Origin: a virus | IMG/VR virus record: IMGVR_UViG_3300031566_000282 | Location: 1 to 28,660 of that record | Strand: one strand, 5' to 3' | Length of the DNA stretch: 28,660 bases | Shown: positions 1 to 12,196 of the stretch, piece after piece | How positions within the stretch are numbered: position 1 is the stretch's first letter | How the letters are laid out: each line of letters opens with the position of its first letter | Translations under genes and position numbers: made by a program | The notes under the pieces: model-generated | The model's database searches: none | Told to the model about the DNA's origin: nothing | The model's input: the letters and a program-made list of their open reading frames with translations, nothing else

Positions 1-867
1 GCATAGGTGGCCACTTATCGGATCTGTGCCGTGGTGGCTATAGGCAAATTTGTCGTCGTAGGTTATAAGCCCTCCGGCGGTTGATCCTTTTGTATAGGTG
101 TATCGGTTTTCGTCAACTTTTAAGTATTGGTCGCTTAGGAATTTTTCAATAACTTCATGGATGTTATAAGACCTGCAAAAGGCACCAATTAGCCCGCGTT
201 TTTCTTCCGGATCTTGTTGCTTTCCTACTTTAGATTTTATTTCTTCAAATTCTTGTTTATTTGACGGCCAAAGGCTCGAATCCGTCCAGTCCGCGTAACG
301 ATTAAGAAATTCGTCAGCATCAATTGGTAGGCCGGTTTGCGTTCTATAATAGTACTCCTGATCCTTTGGTGTGGACGGCCAAAACATCAACCTGTTTATT
401 TCGAAAGTTGTATTATCGAAGTACTCGATGCCAAGATCGTCGGCCAAAAGGCGACTAATTGCCTGGTATTCGTCGCCAGTTACTTCTCTGGACAAAGGCA
501 AAACCAGCCTGAAACGCGGGTTTTCGTCGCTGTGTTTGTGGGTTGCGTGCACTATTGCCGCGTTATCAAAAATAAGAGTGTACAGATCCCAGAAATCCAG
601 AGGGGCAAAATCAAGGTCTAAAGTTATTAATTGCCTGTGTACCACGTTTTTAGGGTTTCTTCGCCCGTTTCTTAAATAGCCTCCCACATAGCCCCCGACG
701 TCTTTTATTTTTAATTGATCCTCTTTGGACGCGCTTAAAAATTCCTTTAAGGTTTCCTGTGTATGTGTGGTTTTGGAAAGCTTATCACAAAGATTTTCCC
801 ATGTGATCTGCTTATTTTTCCAAATCGTAGATTTTACACCGTGTCCGGTTGCTATGTCAATTTGCAT
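1..867 (-). CDS. VapE-type phage primase-helicase, N-terminal part (cut by window edge)
   Basis: The reading frame is open from the ATG at 867 to the left edge, giving 289 residues without a stop. It has the N-terminal region seen in virulence-associated protein E (VapE) phage proteins of Bacteroidota: GGYLRNGRR at about residues 61-69, then RQLITLDLDFA with the acidic DxD pair, RFRLVLPLSR, and NRLMFWP. This order resembles an archaeo-eukaryotic primase-polymerase-like domain; a superfamily-3-type helicase domain would lie beyond the window. By family knowledge such proteins prime and unwind DNA at phage replication forks. An in-frame TAA lies upstream with no other ATG between, which supports this start. 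The gene follows dam on the same strand and has its own promoter-like sequence at 988-1018, giving a leader of about 115 bases. The family call is firm; the division of activities is inferred. Confidence 0.85.
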   Translation of the reverse strand, partial: MQIDIATGHGVKSTIWKNKQITWENLCDKLSKTTHTQETLKEFLSASKEDQLKIKDVGGYVGGYLRNGRRNPKNVVHRQLITLDLDFAPLDFWDLYTLIFDNAAIVHATHKHSDENPRFRLVLPLSREVTGDEYQAISRLLADDLGIEYFDNTTFEINRLMFWPSTPKDQEYYYRTQTGLPIDADEFLNRYADWTDSSLWPSNKQEFEEIKSKVGKQQDPEEKRGLIGAFCRSYNIHEVIEKFLSDQYLKVDENRYTYTKGSTAGGLITYDDKFAYSHHGTDPISGHLC

Positions 868-987: not shown

Positions 988-1018
988 CAAAGATAATAAA
1001 ACTTTGCATTTATCCTAA
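988..1018 (-). promoter_or_regulatory. Promoter for the primase-helicase gene
   Basis: Read on the minus strand, a TATCTTTG -7 box (988-995) lies 19 bases from a TTAG -33 box (1015-1018). The Bacteroidota consensus is TTTG, 19 bases, TAnnTTTG, so only one -33 base differs. It overlaps the 3' end of dam. Confidence 0.55.
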
Positions 1019-1696
1019 TAATGTATATAACTTTTCTACTGCTTTTTTTAAATGTCCTCCGCTGTTTAATTCTTTGTGCCACACACACACAAAATCCTCC
1101 GGGGCGGTATACCCACTTATAAAAATTTCGTGACCCTCTTTCTTTTTATCTCTACACCACTGCCAAAAATGATTATGATCTATGTTATGTTTATAGCCTG
1201 TTGTATTTTGGTATGGTGGATCACAATACACTATACTATTTTCAGGCATTTGCATTTCGTAATAGTGCCCACACGTAAATATGATGCCTTTTAAATTTGG
1301 GGCCTGCTTAGTCGTATTCCTGAAAGCCTCTGAAACGTGGCTACGTGTTGTCTTCTTTGATCTGCAATAGCCTCCGAAAAATTTAGCCCCGAAACTCAGG
1401 TTAAAACCAATGTACCCTATATACCAGTTTTCATATAACTGTGGAAAGTGCTGCACGGCTTTGTATTCCAGTTCGTCAACTTCTGTCGGCGGGTTAAAAT
1501 GATCGCTTTGCATTTCTTTTAAAAGCTCTATTAAATAATGATTTATGTCATTACCTATTCTTTTACCAGCCACTTTGTCGATCAGGTTTGCACCACCGAC
1601 AAAAGGCTCTACGTACCACTGATCAAGTTTTCTATCGGCCAATATTATAGGTAAGATGTGTTTGGCTATTCTGTTTTTCGATCCTAAATATCTCAT
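1010..1696 (-). CDS. dam: Orphan DNA adenine methyltransferase (Dam/D12 class)
   Basis: This 228-residue protein has the D12 class N6-adenine methyltransferase pattern: RYLGSKNRIA at the N-terminus, the AdoMet-binding FVGGAN at residues 32-37, and the catalytic DPPY at 159-162 followed by QNTTGY. It should transfer a methyl group from AdoMet to adenine; GATC is the usual Dam target, but specificity is not provable here. No restriction endonuclease is beside it, so it is an orphan enzyme, probably protecting phage DNA from host restriction or marking replication timing. It is somewhat shorter than E. coli Dam (about 278 residues). A strong hairpin ends about 18 bases before the start codon, between polymerase and dam, so expression may depend on readthrough or a promoter I could not identify. 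Confidence 0.9.
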   Translation of the reverse strand: MRYLGSKNRIAKHILPIILADRKLDQWYVEPFVGGANLIDKVAGKRIGNDINHYLIELLKEMQSDHFNPPTEVDELEYKAVQHFPQLYENWYIGYIGFNLSFGAKFFGGYCRSKKTTRSHVSEAFRNTTKQAPNLKGIIFTCGHYYEMQMPENSIVYCDPPYQNTTGYKHNIDHNHFWQWCRDKKKEGHEIFISGYTAPEDFVCVWHKELNSGGHLKKAVEKLYTLLG

Positions 1697-1969: not shown

Positions 1970-3931
1970 TTATTTTCTGTAATACTTACTTACAAACCCA
2001 TCCGCGCCTAAAGGCAAACCTAAAGCCCAAAGCGGCGGGGTTGACATTATTTCTATTAATTTGTTCAATTCATATTTAGCCGTTTTATCAGGCACTTCCG
2101 CCACTATTTCATCATGCACGTGTATAGCCATTTTAGAGCCGAACCGACTGTATTCGAGCATTGCGGCGGCTAACAAGTCCCTTGCAATAGCCTGGGTAAC
2201 GTTCTCCGCTAATTTGCCACCATAAGTTTCAATCCAAGTCCATTGTTTTGAGGTTTGATCCTGACCTTTATATTTCAAGCTTTGCTGTCCAAAACGGTTC
2301 GTAGTGAATGAAGGTTCTTTATAGAAAAGTTCGCGGCCTGAAGGAAGCCCGATCCTTATATAGTCGCCGTCGTAAATGAATTTTATAACGCCCGCCTTAA
2401 AACCTGTCCCTTTGTTCCTTAATGCCGCTTTTGCGTTGTTTTCTAAAGCCCTCCAAAATTGCACGATCCGAGGGTTCGCCGCCCTCCAAGCTTGCACGAT
2501 CTGATCCATTTCGTCAAAACTTAACCCCATTTTTTCACCGCCCATCAGGGTTAATGCCCCGGTCGATCCCCCATACCCTAAAGCAAGCTCCGCGATCTTA
2601 CCCTTTTGCCGTAAGGGTGAATCTTTACTAATATTTTCTATAGGCACGTTAAACATGGCAGCCGCCGAAGCTTCATAAATTTTACCGTGGGTTTTAAAAA
2701 TTTCAAGCCTCCATGTTTCGCCAGCCAGCCATGAAAGTACCCGCGCCTCAATTGAAGAAAAGTCAGCAACTGCGAAAGTGTAATTTTCAGGCGCTATAAA
2801 AGCCGTTCTGATTAGCTGAGACATAATAGAAGGGAGATCGTCGTAAATTAACTGCAAGGTTTCATAGTCACAATTTTTAAAATAGTCGCGTGTTTGATCT
2901 AAATCTGGTAAATGGTTTTGTGGTAGGTTTTGCAACTGTACCAACCTTCCAGACCAGCGCCCAGTCCTACCCGCGCCGTAAAACTGAAACAAACCATGTG
3001 ATCTGTTTGATTCTAAAACGCTGTTAACCATTGCATTATATTTCTTTATACTGGTTTTGCCCAGCTCTTTACGGAGGTTTAGGACGTCCGAAACAACTCC
3101 GGCACCTTGCTTGTCTATTAGTGGCTGTATTGTTTCTTTTGAAAGACTTTGTATATTTTCGCCTGTTTCAATGAATAACCAGTTTTTAAGCCGCGCCAGG
3201 CTGTTCGGATTATCCAAACCTGTTAATTTTTTTGATCCTGCTATTAGTTTTCTGGTGTGTTGTGTGTTTATGTCAATTATATTATCAACCATTTCGATGT
3301 CTATTAAAACACCACGATCATTAATTTCCTGATCCATTTGATAGTACTGCCTTTCTTCAGTAGGCAGTGGGTACACTGATAAAAGCCGATCAATTTCGCT
3401 CTCCGCTTTTACGTCGTTTATGCAATATTCTTTGAACAGTTGCCACTTGTCAGTGTCATGTTCGGGTAAGTTTCGCAGCCGTCCACCGTTTGTTTTGGTA
3501 GGTTTGCAAGGCTTTGCAAAGTAGTTTATTAAAATTGTCCCGGTGTCCAGTTTTGCGTTTTCTCCTAAATCCAAAACTTTGGAAATGTCTTCGAGTTTCA
3601 AAGGTAAACCACAATAGGCCGCCTTAATCATCGAACAGTGCCAGCGGTCGATCGTTGTGAAAAGTCCCACCCTATTAAAGGCAAGCCTCTCAAAATTTGC
3701 GTTGTGGGCGTGTAGCTCGTAGTCCGGGTTTTTAAAAATTTCTAAAAAGCGGAGGTAATTTTCGTTCACTATAGTTGGATCAGAAAGGTCTACGATTTGA
3801 ACGGGTTGATCGTCTATTGCGAAAGCAATTAACATAATTTCAAAGCTATCGTCTTTTATGTATCTGTAGGCACCCGCTTTTCTTATGTCTACTTCGCTGT
3901 AAGTTTCTATGTCTATATGTAATTTTGGCAT
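1970..3931 (-). CDS. Family A DNA polymerase with 3'-5' exonuclease domain
   Basis: This 653-residue phage-type DNA polymerase I homologue should copy the phage genome. The proofreading domain shows Exo I DIET (D7, E9), Exo II around HNANFE (residues 76-81) and Exo III YCINDVKAE (D173). The polymerase domain shows motif A DFSSIEAR (390-397), motif B RQKGKIAELALGYGG (441-455) and motif C HDE (606-608), all intact. The length suits phage enzymes that lack the 5' nuclease domain of bacterial Pol I. It follows the DUF2815 gene by 53 bases in the same leftward operon as DUF2800 and the XRE gene, a replication module common in temperate phages. The stop codon abuts the tRNA-like fragment. The start ATG gives the exonuclease motif at the very N-terminus, as in relatives. 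Confidence 0.95.
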   Translation of the reverse strand: MPKLHIDIETYSEVDIRKAGAYRYIKDDSFEIMLIAFAIDDQPVQIVDLSDPTIVNENYLRFLEIFKNPDYELHAHNANFERLAFNRVGLFTTIDRWHCSMIKAAYCGLPLKLEDISKVLDLGENAKLDTGTILINYFAKPCKPTKTNGGRLRNLPEHDTDKWQLFKEYCINDVKAESEIDRLLSVYPLPTEERQYYQMDQEINDRGVLIDIEMVDNIIDINTQHTRKLIAGSKKLTGLDNPNSLARLKNWLFIETGENIQSLSKETIQPLIDKQGAGVVSDVLNLRKELGKTSIKKYNAMVNSVLESNRSHGLFQFYGAGRTGRWSGRLVQLQNLPQNHLPDLDQTRDYFKNCDYETLQLIYDDLPSIMSQLIRTAFIAPENYTFAVADFSSIEARVLSWLAGETWRLEIFKTHGKIYEASAAAMFNVPIENISKDSPLRQKGKIAELALGYGGSTGALTLMGGEKMGLSFDEMDQIVQAWRAANPRIVQFWRALENNAKAALRNKGTGFKAGVIKFIYDGDYIRIGLPSGRELFYKEPSFTTNRFGQQSLKYKGQDQTSKQWTWIETYGGKLAENVTQAIARDLLAAAMLEYSRFGSKMAIHVHDEIVAEVPDKTAKYELNKLIEIMSTPPLWALGLPLGADGFVSKYYRK

Positions 3932-5683: not shown

Positions 5684-6180
5684 TATAATTCAATTACAAA
5701 GTTATAAAACCCTTCGTATTTGGCCGGATCTAATTTGCTGACATTTTCAGCGCCTAGCCTGTCCAGTTCTGCTTTCATTTTATCCCGTTTATTTTGATCC
5801 CCGGCGCGGGCTTTAACTTGCGTTTTTAGTTCTTCAAGTGTTACTCCCGCGTCGGTCTCCGCCTTCTGGGTTTCTACCTTTGGGGTTTCTACCTTCTGGG
5901 TTTCTACCTTTGGGGTTTCTACCTTCTGGGTTTCATCCTTCTGGGTTTCATCCTTCTGGGTTTCATCCTTCTGGGGCCACGCCTTCTGGGTCCCCGCCTT
6001 CTGGGTTTCTACCTTCTGGGTTTCATCCTTCTGGGTCCCCGCCTTCTGGGTTTCTACCTTTGGGGTCTTCATTCTTTTTGCAGTTTCGCAAGTTTCGCCT
6101 GCCAAAGTTTCAGCGAAGGCAGACAAAGCACGCATGTGCTTTTCATTGTCCAGGTCTAAATTTAATTTAATTTCTATCAT
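5683..6180 (-). CDS. Phage protein with 5-residue repeat linker and C-terminal helical domain
   Basis: The protein is 165 residues from the ATG at 6180, chosen because it overlaps the XRE stop by 14 bases and begins MIEIKLNLDLDNEKHMRAL; an upstream in-frame ATG would lie deep inside the XRE gene. Residues 1-38 form an N-terminal module, 39-108 are fourteen copies of a TQKxE-like pentamer, and 109-165 (LEELKTQVKAR to LDPAKYEGFYNFVIEL) look like the small C-terminal domain of phage proteins often mislabelled rRNA biogenesis protein rrp5. Those usually sit beside DUF2800/DUF2815, as here. The repeat is highly charged and probably a flexible spacer. The function is unknown; a replication accessory or adaptor role is inferred from position. 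Confidence 0.75.
   Translation of the reverse strand: MIEIKLNLDLDNEKHMRALSAFAETLAGETCETAKRMKTPKVETQKAGTQKDETQKVETQKAGTQKAWPQKDETQKDETQKDETQKVETPKVETQKVETPKVETQKAETDAGVTLEELKTQVKARAGDQNKRDKMKAELDRLGAENVSKLDPAKYEGFYNFVIEL
5857..6066 (-). repeat. Tandem repeat, 15-bp unit, about 14 copies, in frame
   Basis: Fourteen consecutive 15-bp units encode variants of TQKxE (TQKDE, TQKVE, TPKVE, TQKAG and others). The units differ by a few bases, mainly at the fourth and fifth codons. Copy number could change by slippage without breaking the frame, because each unit is five codons. Confidence 0.95.
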
Positions 6181-8035: not shown

Positions 8036-9034
8036 TTAACGTTTCCAAAATGATTCCCGGCATTCGTCCGAACAGAAAACGTGATGTGGCCCCCGCTTCT
8101 CAAAAGGCTGGCCGCAGTGTTTGCAGCCTTGCGGGTCTTTTAAAACTAAAGGTGGTTTCTTTTCTTCAAAGGCATTAAAATAGTTATGTATTACCTGTGC
8201 AAATTTTCGGTCAAGTAAAGTCACGGCCTTCAATTCTATTTCACTTGTCAATAATTCAAACTGATTTGTTTTTTCTTCATAAATTTTCGAAAAGAAGTAC
8301 ATTAGCAGCCCGTTAACTGACAAAATTACAAACATTACGACGGCGACTATATTATAATACCTGTCCGCCTCCGATGCCACCTCCACATTGTTGTTTTTCA
8401 ACTTGGCAAGGTGATCCCCCCTTATCTCTGCTTTGGCCTTTTTATAACCATCTGTTAAGCTTTTAATGTCTGCATAGTAGTCATCTATTGTTTTCAGTTG
8501 ATCGGCTGTCAGGTGTGATCTTCTATTGCCCTGCCATGCTTGCGGGTTTATTATGATAGTGTTGATCCTGCCCTGTATATAGTCGCGGTCAGTCTTAAAA
8601 TTGAGTTCTAAATCTTTTGAAAGCTCCGTGTAATTGTCCGCAATTTCTTTTCGTACGTCGACCTTTTCACTTTGTCGCATTGCCAGACCGTTCGTGGATG
8701 AAATGAACGATACGCTAAACAAACCGACTGCAAGGAACAAAGCAAAGATCGCCGTTCGCAGCTTGCCCCGCAAAGCGAATTTAAAAAACTTCGACAATGC
8801 GATCGCGGTCAACACCTCTATTAACATAAGGTTGACTACTGAGAAAGTTATGGATAAGGCTTTATCATTCAACAAACTTGTAAACAGATCTAAGAAATAG
8901 AAATAGCCTGCGAAGACGCTGAATGTCATTGTCGCTATCTTTACAATTATGGTAATTAATATAAAAGCCCTCCATTCAACCAGAAAGCTTTGTTGGTTGT
9001 ATTGCCGCTTTGCAAAATTTTCAAGTGTTTTCAT
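8036..9034 (-). CDS. Four-helix membrane protein with C-terminal zinc finger, function unknown
   Basis: The protein has 332 residues. Hydrophobic segments lie at about 22-48, 60-82, 94-112 and 228-248. Between the third and fourth is a charged, probably helical stretch of some 115 residues. After the fourth helix comes another helix-rich segment, and the C-terminus carries CKHC (C304, C307) and CSDEC (C321, C325), a short zinc ribbon of the kind that ends FCSDECR. I know no family with this architecture. It lies alone between a mini-operon and divergent promoters, and its own promoter predicts a leaderless mRNA starting at this ATG. A membrane-anchored superinfection-exclusion or sensing role is possible but only inferred. 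The stop lies within an operator-like repeat. Confidence 0.8.
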   Translation of the reverse strand: MKTLENFAKRQYNQQSFLVEWRAFILITIIVKIATMTFSVFAGYFYFLDLFTSLLNDKALSITFSVVNLMLIEVLTAIALSKFFKFALRGKLRTAIFALFLAVGLFSVSFISSTNGLAMRQSEKVDVRKEIADNYTELSKDLELNFKTDRDYIQGRINTIIINPQAWQGNRRSHLTADQLKTIDDYYADIKSLTDGYKKAKAEIRGDHLAKLKNNNVEVASEADRYYNIVAVVMFVILSVNGLLMYFFSKIYEEKTNQFELLTSEIELKAVTLLDRKFAQVIHNYFNAFEEKKPPLVLKDPQGCKHCGQPFEKRGPHHVFCSDECRESFWKR

Positions 9035-9822: not shown

Positions 9823-10129
9823 GGTGGTCATAGAAAGCCCGTATGCGGGGTGCGTAGCGCAAAATGTTAATTATGCCCGGCGCTGTGTAAAAGATAGCTT
9901 ATTGCGCGGCGAGGCGCCGATCGCAAGCCATTTGTTATACACCCAGCCGGGGATTTTAGACGACTCTAACCCGGTAGAGAGAAAGCTGGGTATTGAGGTC
10001 GGCCTTGAATGGTTAAGCGTGGCGGACAAACATGTTTTTTATATAGACTATGGTTATACGGATGGTATGCTTATAGCTAAAGAAAGATCTGAAAATTTAG
10101 GAAAAATAATAGAAGAAAGGACTTTATGA
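9812..10129 (+). CDS. DUF7768 family protein (nucleoside deoxyribosyltransferase-like fold)
   Basis: The 105-residue protein carries the family signature: ESPYAG at residues 8-13, NVNYARRCVKDSLLRGEAP, ASHLLYTQPGILDD, ERKLGIEVGLEWL, and YIDYGYTDGM near the end. Members resemble nucleoside 2-deoxyribosyltransferase-like domains and are widespread in phages; a role in nucleotide metabolism is suspected but not established. It overlaps the membrane-protein gene at its start and the exonuclease gene by 4 bases (ATGA) at its end, so it is translated as part of the operon. Confidence 0.8.
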   Translation: MKAKVVIESPYAGCVAQNVNYARRCVKDSLLRGEAPIASHLLYTQPGILDDSNPVERKLGIEVGLEWLSVADKHVFYIDYGYTDGMLIAKERSENLGKIIEERTL

Positions 10130-10707
10130 TTAAAAAACTATTTTATGATTTAGAGACTACTGGGGTAGACGTGCGAAAGCACTCTATCCACCAGATCGCG
10201 GGGTTGATTGAGATTGGTGACGAGGTGGTGGAAACTTTCGACATTAAGACCAGACCACACCCCAAAGCGGAGATCACGCCGGAGGCTTTGACGGTTTGCG
10301 GTGTTAGCCAAGAAACTATTATGTCATACCAACCAATGGGATCGGCCTACAAAGACTTAATATCATTAATGGCTAAGTACGTGGATCGGTACGATAAAGC
10401 GGATAAGTTCTTTATGGTCGGTTTTAACAATTCGTACTTTGATGACACTTTCCTTCGTGCCTGGTTTGAACAGAACAATGACGCTTTCTTTGATGCTTGG
10501 TTCTTCAGGGGGTCATTAGATGTTATGGGCCTTGCGGCTGAGTACTTAATTGACAGGCGTGTACAGATGCCTAGTTTTAAATTAAGCAGGGTGTGTTTAG
10601 AGCTGGGGATCGATGTGGATAAAACCAAACTACACGACGGTGTGTATGATGTTGAATTAATGAGACAAGTTTACAGGATTGTGACTAAAAGAGAAGTTGA
10701 ATTATAA
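10126..10707 (+). CDS. DnaQ-like 3'-5' exonuclease (DEDDh)
   Basis: This 193-residue exonuclease resembles the epsilon subunit of DNA polymerase III. Exo I is YDLETTG with D8 and E10, Exo II is GFNNSYFDD with D106, and Exo III is LHDGVYDVEL with H170 and D175, so all DEDDh ligands are present. It should remove nucleotides from 3' ends of DNA or RNA. The phage polymerase already has a proofreading domain, so this enzyme more likely trims RNA or degrades nucleic acid in recycling or defence. It is the last gene of the rightward early operon; a terminator lies 120 bases downstream. Confidence 0.9.
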   Translation: MIKKLFYDLETTGVDVRKHSIHQIAGLIEIGDEVVETFDIKTRPHPKAEITPEALTVCGVSQETIMSYQPMGSAYKDLISLMAKYVDRYDKADKFFMVGFNNSYFDDTFLRAWFEQNNDAFFDAWFFRGSLDVMGLAAEYLIDRRVQMPSFKLSRVCLELGIDVDKTKLHDGVYDVELMRQVYRIVTKREVEL

Positions 10708-10826
10708 TAAAACTTTACAAAAATAGGAATAACAAATAAATATATGTTAAATTTTTTAACACTTCCAAAAACAAGTATTTGTTATAATTAAGTAATTATC
10801 TAAGAGTCATACATTTAGCACAAAAT

Positions 10827-10853
10827 ACCAGGTATTTGTTACCTGGTTTTTTT
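10827..10853 (+). terminator. Terminator after the DUF7768/DnaQ operon
   Basis: ACCAGGTA and TACCTGGT form an 8-bp stem with a 5-base loop and run directly into seven T, a strong intrinsic terminator on the plus strand. Confidence 0.85.
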
Positions 10854-10930
10854 ATGTAAAGTATTATAAACATTCTTAGGTTTTCCGGGCGGTCTACACA
10901 CCTATACGCTGGGCGTTCTATTGTTTCTTT

Positions 10931-11317
10931 GTTTACCTAATGTTTATAAGGTTTGTGGAAATTGCGTAAACAATGATGATTTATTGTTTACATTTATTGT
11001 TTCCCTTCAATCCTTACCCTACCTAAGATTACCTAATATGTAAACAAAGTAAACAATAGAAAGCACTGGTAGTTAAAAAGCTAAAATAAAAATATACCTA
11101 AATAACAAATATATATATGATATATACTTATTATTTACACATGTTTTTATATTTATTACATAGCCCTATATAGGGGATTTTGTGTTTACTTTGTTTACTT
11201 TGCAGGCCGTTATTAGTGTTTACTGGGTTTTGAATAGAAACAAAGGGTGAAATTATTGTTTACGTTATTGTTTACGATTAGGGTTGAACCTTAGTCTACC
11301 GACGTAAACAATAATTT
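10931..11317. repeat. Cluster of eleven GTTTAC/GTAAAC motifs
   Basis: Forward GTTTAC starts at 10931, 10986, 11184, 11193, 11218, 11258 and 11270; reverse GTAAAC starts at 10966, 11040, 11049 and 11304. Special arrangements are the 9-bp inverted pair GTAAACAAT/ATTGTTTAC (10966-10974, 10983-10991), a tandem repeat of TTATTGTTTACG (11253-11264, 11265-11276), and a perfect 15-bp inverted repeat (11250-11264, 11303-11317). Fewer than one copy would be expected by chance in this length. Confidence 0.9.
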
Positions 11318-11354
11318 CCTGGTATTATTTATAGGCTTTTTTGTTGGTATGGGT

Positions 11355-11385
11355 TTTGATAATTGATAACTTTAGTTTATATTTG
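11355..11385 (+). promoter_or_regulatory. Promoter of the terminase operon
   Basis: TTTG (11355-11358), exactly 19 bases, then TATATTTG (11378-11385) match the Bacteroidota consensus perfectly. The leader is about 70 bases and carries a possible CCGGG/CCCGG stem at 11413-11440. Confidence 0.8.
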
Positions 11386-11459
11386 TATCTCTAATTAATG
11401 ATTTTTGATAAGCCGGGGAAGTCTCAACCCACTGACCCGGTGTATTTTAACTAAATTTT

Positions 11460-11645
11460 ATGAAATTTACAGAGGTTATAACACTAGTGGACTTAATTTT
11501 GGATAAGGACTATGCTATAAAAGCGGGCAGCACTGTTATGATAACTAAAGGCTTGAAAAGTAAATACGCGCTTTGGCATAGTTCGGGTGTTTATGATTTA
11601 CCCGATCACGTTATTAGTGATTTGCCAGAAATAAATTTAAAATAA
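11460..11645 (+). CDS. Small unknown protein ahead of terminase, 61 residues
   Basis: The ORF starts MKFTEVITLV and has a mostly beta-rich composition (DYAIKAGSTVMITKG, ALWHSSGVYDLPDHVI). The KAGSTVMI-KG pattern suggests a small SH3-like barrel, as in some phage accessory proteins, but this is only a pattern impression. It is the first gene after the terminase promoter and lies 5 bases before the small terminase gene. A packaging-linked role is inferred from position. Confidence 0.65.
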   Translation: MKFTEVITLVDLILDKDYAIKAGSTVMITKGLKSKYALWHSSGVYDLPDHVISDLPEINLK

Positions 11646-11650
11646 AAACG

Positions 11651-12196
11651 ATGGGTGCACCTAAAGGAAACCAATTTTGGAAATTAAGAAGTAAGCACGG
11701 GCGGGACAAACTGTTTGCCACTCCTGAACTACTTTGGAGTGCCGCTTGTGAATATTTCCAGTGGTGCGACGAAAACCCGTGGCTAAAGATGGAACAGTCC
11801 CGTGGCACGCCTAAGCCTATTATAGACGATTTGACGGGCGAAAAGGTCTGGCCGGACAATATTACGGCCATTCCGGTTGAAAGGCCTTACACTGTACACG
11901 GACTATGCTTATACCTCGATTGTAATACTCAATATTTCAATGATTTTGCAAAAAATTTAAAGGAAAATGAAAAAGATTTTTCCATAGTCGTTACGCGTAT
12001 AATGGAAACCATATACAAGCAAAAGTTTGAGGGCGCGGCGGTCGGAACGTTCAATTCTAATATAATAGCCCGCGACTTAGGTTTGACCGATAAGAAAGAT
12101 CTTAATTTGGGGGGTAAGGTTGAAACTGATTTTAGTAAAATTTCCACGGACGAGCTCCTTAAACGGGCGGAGGCCATAAAAAAGCTAAGTGAATAG
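11651..12196 (+). CDS. Terminase small subunit
   Basis: The 181-residue protein has the pattern of small terminase/DNA-packaging proteins of Bacteroidota phages: MGAPKGNQFWKLRSKHGR at the start, LLWSAACEYFQWCDENPW, RPYTVHGLCLYLDCNTQYF with a helix-turn-helix-like segment, and QKFEGAAVGTFNSNIIARDLGLTDKK. It recognises the packaging site and hands DNA to the large subunit. Its stop overlaps the large-subunit start by 8 bases, as is usual for terminase pairs. Confidence 0.88.
   Translation: MGAPKGNQFWKLRSKHGRDKLFATPELLWSAACEYFQWCDENPWLKMEQSRGTPKPIIDDLTGEKVWPDNITAIPVERPYTVHGLCLYLDCNTQYFNDFAKNLKENEKDFSIVVTRIMETIYKQKFEGAAVGTFNSNIIARDLGLTDKKDLNLGGKVETDFSKISTDELLKRAEAIKKLSE

Follow-up and report, generated by a model that had tools for sequence, protein, structure and literature searches.

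A mirror-image iteron array beside the terminase genes of a VapE-encoding phage is a probable replication origin of the SaPI/PICI kind

The Rep protein of SaPIs binds iterons downstream of its own gene by its C-terminal domain (PMC7581432), and in PICI origins an AT-rich region always lies between two sets of iterons, an organisation that, according to a 2018 paper, no other known replicon shares (PMC6092414). These origins are served by Rep or Pri-Rep proteins, as in pri-rep-ori of EcCICFT073. The SCCmec protein Cch2 is likewise a self-loading helicase that binds direct repeats downstream of its own gene, and an A-family polymerase is co-encoded with it (PMC7581432, PMC10061031). Unlike the array described here, the Cch2 system belongs to a chromosomal cassette and has three iterons only, with no paired sets around an AT-rich core described. 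Origins of the lambda O type also combine iterons with an AT-rich region, but their initiator is unrelated and the iterons lie within its gene. This arrangement was observed in another phage (L035), where palindromic GTAAACTNNGTTTAC iterons with the hexamer GTAAAC (1661-1730) fall within the gene of a lambda-O-like initiator (minus strand, 1263-1997). The present array is intergenic and built of tandem, mirror-image sets, and a lambda-O-type origin with iterons inside the initiator gene was discarded for this locus.

The DNA analyzed (the window, 28,660 bp) is a fragment of a tailed phage whose terminase matches Bacteroidota phages. TerL, portal, protease and tail genes are all present, and the window was rejected as a PICI element itself, since a PICI is a satellite without capsid and tail genes of its own. 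The genes that matter for the comparison are the following.

1-867, minus strand: VapE-type primase-helicase gene truncated by the contig end, N-terminal third of the protein (about 289 aa), sharing 63% identity with VapE of G001, the nearest relative found
1010-1696, minus strand: D12 N6-adenine DNA methyltransferase, within the replication module
1970-3931, minus strand: family A DNA polymerase (PolA), replication module, Pfam PF00476
3985-4521, minus strand: single-stranded DNA-binding protein (SSB) of the Enc34 type, Pfam PF10991
4526-5683, minus strand: DUF2800 nuclease, replication module, Pfam PF10926
6421-7386, strand not given: C5-cytosine DNA methyltransferase, within the replication module
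10126-10707, plus strand: DnaQ-like exonuclease adjoining the array, a synteny marker in relatives, Pfam PF00929
11460-11645, plus strand: 61-aa ORF, the first after the array gap
11651-12196, plus strand: terminase small subunit (TerS), downstream of the array, Pfam PF16677

The plus strand reads in order DUF7768, exonuclease, array gap, 61-aa ORF, TerS, TerL and virion genes; the minus strand also encodes two small XRE proteins. A 178-aa ORF contains a 15-bp tandem repeat (5854-6076) that gives a repetitive protein of the TQKVETQKDE type. At 8036-9034 lies the gene for a 332-aa protein that contains hydrophobic segments and whose C-terminal end is zinc-ribbon-like (CxxC...CxxxC); a search for its relatives found none, and it was rejected as an initiator, as it resembles a membrane protein. 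An Rfam scan of the window gave no RNA family. GC skew was found to track the transcription strand in all genomes examined and is thus uninformative as an origin test.

The eleven GTTTAC/GTAAAC hexamers within 379 bp that a preliminary description had reported were recovered at 10931-11309, far above the level of shuffled sequence. Dinucleotide-preserving shuffles of the whole window (n=200) yielded at most five hexamers in any 379-bp stretch, and in shuffles of the 753-bp intergenic segment (n=2000) the mean was 1.1 and the maximum six. The array is located in the gap 10708-11459, between the ORFs 10126-10707 and 11460-11645, which is indeed the largest gene-free stretch of the window when ORFs of at least 60 aa are counted. 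It is composed as follows.

10931-11309: iteron array, eleven GTTTAC/GTAAAC hexamers (8-mer TGTAAACA/TGTTTACA-like), five to the left and six to the right of the AT-rich centre
11040-11055, plus strand: left inner tandem pair GTAAACAAAGTAAACA with 9-bp spacing, of the same geometry in relatives
11073-11156: AT-rich centre, 88% AT, the AT-richest 84 bp of the window, proposed unwinding element
11164-11175: palindrome CCCTATATAGGG, right border of the AT-rich core
11183-11198, minus strand: right inner tandem pair TGTTTACTTTGTTTAC, perfect inverse of the left pair
11249-11265 and 11302-11318: outer right iterons in a perfect 17-bp inverted repeat, including a 12-bp tandem pair at 11253-11276
11355-11385, plus strand: promoter-like site for the terminase operon, TTTG ... 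TATATTTG (11378), obtained in a TANNTTTG scan and located beyond the last iteron

The AT-rich block with the palindrome in the middle and the 12-bp tandem pair had been noticed before, as had the perfect inverted repeat, which was given as 15 bp and extends over 17 bp. The main symmetry of the array had been missed: the perfect 16-bp inverted tandem pairs at 11040-11055 and 11183-11198 bracket the AT block, and the locus thus shows the two iteron sets flanking an AT-rich region that mark PICI and SaPI origins. By eye, TATAGGG or TAAGGG steps resembling the palindrome of the window occupy the same place in relatives. The TTTG ... TATATTTG site resembles promoters of the Bacteroidota type.

An initiator of the Rep type was said to be missing nearby, which is wrong because the VapE primase-helicase gene is cut off at the left end of the window. 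In a tblastn search with VapE of G001, positions 1-867 (minus strand) corresponded to its first 289 residues with 63% identity; the VapE helicase domain (PF05272) falls on the missing part, so that the family search of the window found nothing. A VapE profile made from relatives matched 7pds, a protein labeled 'Similar to D. nodosus vapE', with an E-value of 1.8e-108 over the helicase and C-terminal parts. This SaPI-type Pri-Rep helicase, PriRep1 of SaPI5, was solved with double-stranded DNA ('PriRep1 with dsDNA'). The last 100 residues of the G001 protein (L096:7377-7679) were modeled as a winged helix with a mean pLDDT of 90, and the best PDB match of this C-terminal model was the C-terminal part of 7pds (TM-score ~0.8). 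By homology, with both helicase and C-terminal fold in common, VapE would be a self-loading AAA+ initiator with a C-terminal DNA-binding domain like Rep and Pri-Rep, of which the window holds the N-terminal 289 aa alone; for its missing C-terminus a wing like STKNFGYYGKQKYY is predicted. VapE matches were obtained in 1012 annotated phage records. The winged-helix model of G001 also gave weak, non-significant structural matches to forkhead domains, which bind TGTTTAC as well, a likeness that is probably convergence or coincidence.

We consider it probable that the array is the replication origin of the phage, of the SaPI/PICI kind and bound by VapE via its C-terminal winged helix, and that it has moved away from the initiator gene. 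An origin is favored by the two iteron sets around an AT-rich core, by conservation with the VapE module and by the co-variation of iterons and VapE wing described below; the symmetry of the array and, in distant relatives, its location behind vapE were likewise observed. Binding by VapE, melting and origin firing in the window phage are drawn by analogy from work on SaPIs and SCCmec (PMC7581432, PMC6092414). As a self-loading primase-helicase of the Rep kind, VapE would use its C-terminal winged helix to bind the TGTAAACA iterons, and its copies would assemble on both iteron sets to form two rings. The assembled protein would then melt the AT-rich DNA between the sets and load itself as replicative helicase of two forks, served by PolA and SSB of the phage. 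Unlike PICIs and SaPIs, the window stems from a tailed phage that is autonomous and encodes PolA and SSB itself, the iteron letters differ, the array is sometimes present twice, and it adjoins the terminase genes, about 10 kb from vapE. This separation from vapE throughout the window clade speaks against the origin reading. PICI and SaPI origins as a rule follow directly on the initiator gene; since the window clade breaks this rule, the array is not classed as a member of the PICI/SaPI type.

A search with the exonuclease alone found one relative, which turned out to be decisive. In relatives that share the DUF2800-SSB-PolA-VapE module, the array, with TGTAAACA units, was detected near the terminase genes, even where the terminase is a different one, or ahead of the early operon, or at both places. 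The array and its core, a tandem pair and an inverted tandem pair separated by an AT-rich spacer, are found together in G001, G008, G009, G011, G012, L100-L102, L104, L110 and others. Conservation, which had been named as a check of the idea, was seen along with the VapE module: the strict threshold was reached in 25 of 54 window-clade loci, most of them partial, and in about half of the partial loci no array was detected within the available stretch. G001 (36,926 bp) carries the same array at the contig start, followed by TerS, and the exonuclease at the contig end; both ends share 120 bp of tandem repeat, which is consistent with a circular genome without proving a circle. Exonuclease, array and TerL are together on one contig in L104, G009 and G011. 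In the cultured Croceibacter phage P2559Y, 12 GTAAAC/GTTTAC sites span the ends of the circular record (42701 through 43153 to 183), just ahead of terS at 240, and in the close VapE relative G007 a sparse version of the array was obtained. Window-clade relatives with a complete vapE showed no array 3' of this gene.

An array immediately ahead of terS, as found in the window and in many relatives, would also fit a cos or pac packaging site bound by TerS. However, more than three GTTTAC sites upstream were found in none of 72 terS-homologous loci, each with at least 500 bp of upstream DNA, compared with 12 in the window. Moreover, TerS and TerL of G001 have no detectable homology to those of the window, yet the array is kept beside them, and distant relatives carry it at vapE instead, which makes a packaging site highly improbable.

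Several relatives with a terminase-side array additionally harbor, ahead of the early replication operon, a second, smaller GTAAAC array that also has an AT-rich core. Second arrays were located as follows.

L125, 1634-1818: second array upstream of the early operon
L123, 2062-2350: second array upstream of the early operon
L100, 707-994: second array upstream of the early operon
L106, 3392-3812: second array upstream of the early operon

Because both array positions are upstream of operons, the strongest alternative is an operator array, in which a phage regulator of the HTH/XRE type would bind a master operator and time the early and late operons. The arrays precede the terminase operon and, in several relatives, an early operon starting with an HTH-like gene, and in the window the promoter-like site follows 40-70 bp past the last iteron; a regulator could likewise account for the pairs of arrays in several relatives, of which one precedes the early operon, and these pairs count against an origin. 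On the other hand, in most of the distant relatives the replication operon itself contains arrays of this iteron family and core geometry, placed immediately behind vapE. The iteron-to-promoter distance varies, changes of the motif track the VapE wing, and an operator would not need an AT-rich core. The preliminary description had left open whether the array is an iteron origin or operators for a regulator, and had named the XRE proteins and host DnaA as binders; the comparative evidence sides with the origin, and neither binder is borne out. Homologs of the two window XRE genes were found only in G001 and G007 besides the window itself, most array-bearing relatives have no detectable one, and other HTH genes are present in relatives. 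All in all, we regard a master operator as unlikely.

As the second array lies upstream of the early operon in some relatives, an additional operator role of the origin is possible. Such a dual-purpose element, which overlaps with the origin reading, would be a VapE-bound origin whose occupancy also controls the early and late promoters. It would agree with the duplication of the array upstream of both operons in G009, G011, G012, L100 and L156 and with the promoters that the array adjoins. Regulation is a candidate function only, though, many relatives have a single array and the promoter distance varies, and we regard this extended role as rather doubtful.

In VapE phages whose VapE shares at most ~49% identity with that of G001, the array lies mostly just 3' of vapE, as in PICIs and SaPIs. 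In distant phages with the same module it falls between vapE and the VRR-NUC and SNF2 genes; the letters vary, and the motifs are mostly of the form TG[T/G]NNACA. The pattern was checked on 76 further vapE loci, drawn from host genomes and not used in forming the idea. A locus was scored as positive if one hexamer occurred seven times or more in the 470 bp following vapE, on both strands and above all 60 shuffles. Arrays were detected in 48 of the 76 loci, in every case on both strands; of 212 control stretches taken within these loci, 2 contained seven hexamer copies. Among cultured phages, Enterococcus phage phiFL4A (GGATAC units, L207 4896-5215) and Staphylococcus phage phi2958PVL (GATGCAACA units, L208 4950-5215) carry arrays directly behind virE/vapE that the record annotation lacks. 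In Elizabethkingia phage TCUEAP1 (L206 7590-7865) a tandem pair, an AT-rich spacer and an inverted tandem pair of TGTCTCAA-type units were recognized by eye. With standard motifs no array was detected near VapE of Bacteroides phage BF486P2, which, like the window-clade loci without an array, speaks against the origin reading.

A relation between iterons and VapE is visible in three near-identical loci (L169, L172 and L173), whose VapE proteins are 98.5-100% identical except for the C-terminal wing. Between L169 and L173 all 741 aligned positions before the C-terminal domain are identical, compared with 56 of 65 within it; for L172 the counts are 730 of 741 and 53 or 55 of 65. The differences within this domain are confined to the last ~27 residues, which map to the wing as predicted by the model. 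The arrays of the trio are readily alignable, yet each of the nine iterons differs, reading TGTAGACA in L169, TGTTGACA in L172 and TGGTAACA in L173. Among 38 VapEs, motif distance tracked wing distance with a weak correlation (partial Mantel r 0.19, p 0.012) and was uncorrelated with helicase or N-terminal distance. The DNA encoding the wing adjoins the array in the trio and in most of these genomes, and local recombination could therefore link both without binding. That the motif varies from phage to phage along with a phage-encoded protein also argues against an origin dependent on host DnaA, or an array for another host protein, to which the AT-rich DNA adjoining the repeats would be suited; as the exact DnaA box TTWTNCACA is furthermore absent from 10700-11460, such a host-driven array is scarcely credible.

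Taken together, these comparisons suggest that, contrary to the 2018 paper (PMC6092414), many phages share the PICI origin organisation, and the SaPI/PICI-type layout appears to be widespread in ordinary phages. In the paper library searched, no description of the origins of VapE phages was found. More tentatively, PICI-type origins may form a general class of autonomous VapE phages from Bacteroidota and Firmicutes, in which the wing would read the central letters of TG[T/G]NNACA and wing and array would switch together, giving rise to compatibility groups. In the window clade, the origin detached from the initiator gene and often doubled at the early and late operons may then link replication to transcription. 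VapE genes are still named after virulence, though the protein is a relative of replication initiators, and the arrays suggest a single origin system common to satellites and phages. Natural swaps of wing and iterons provide ready pairs for testing how the winged helix reads an iteron, and also whether the origin of one phage, prophage or satellite can be used or blocked by another in the same cell.

Two further elements were observed beside arrays. In G001, 58-bp tandem repeats, each with a short inverted repeat, lie beside the origin array (L084 6792-7477; L095 1-196 and 3990-4129), with about 15 copies across the contig ends and 2.4 more at 4 kb. In the distantly related arrays of L086, L092, L094 and L104, an ACGCGTA-rich element is located to the right of the AT-rich core and is possibly a second conserved origin element.
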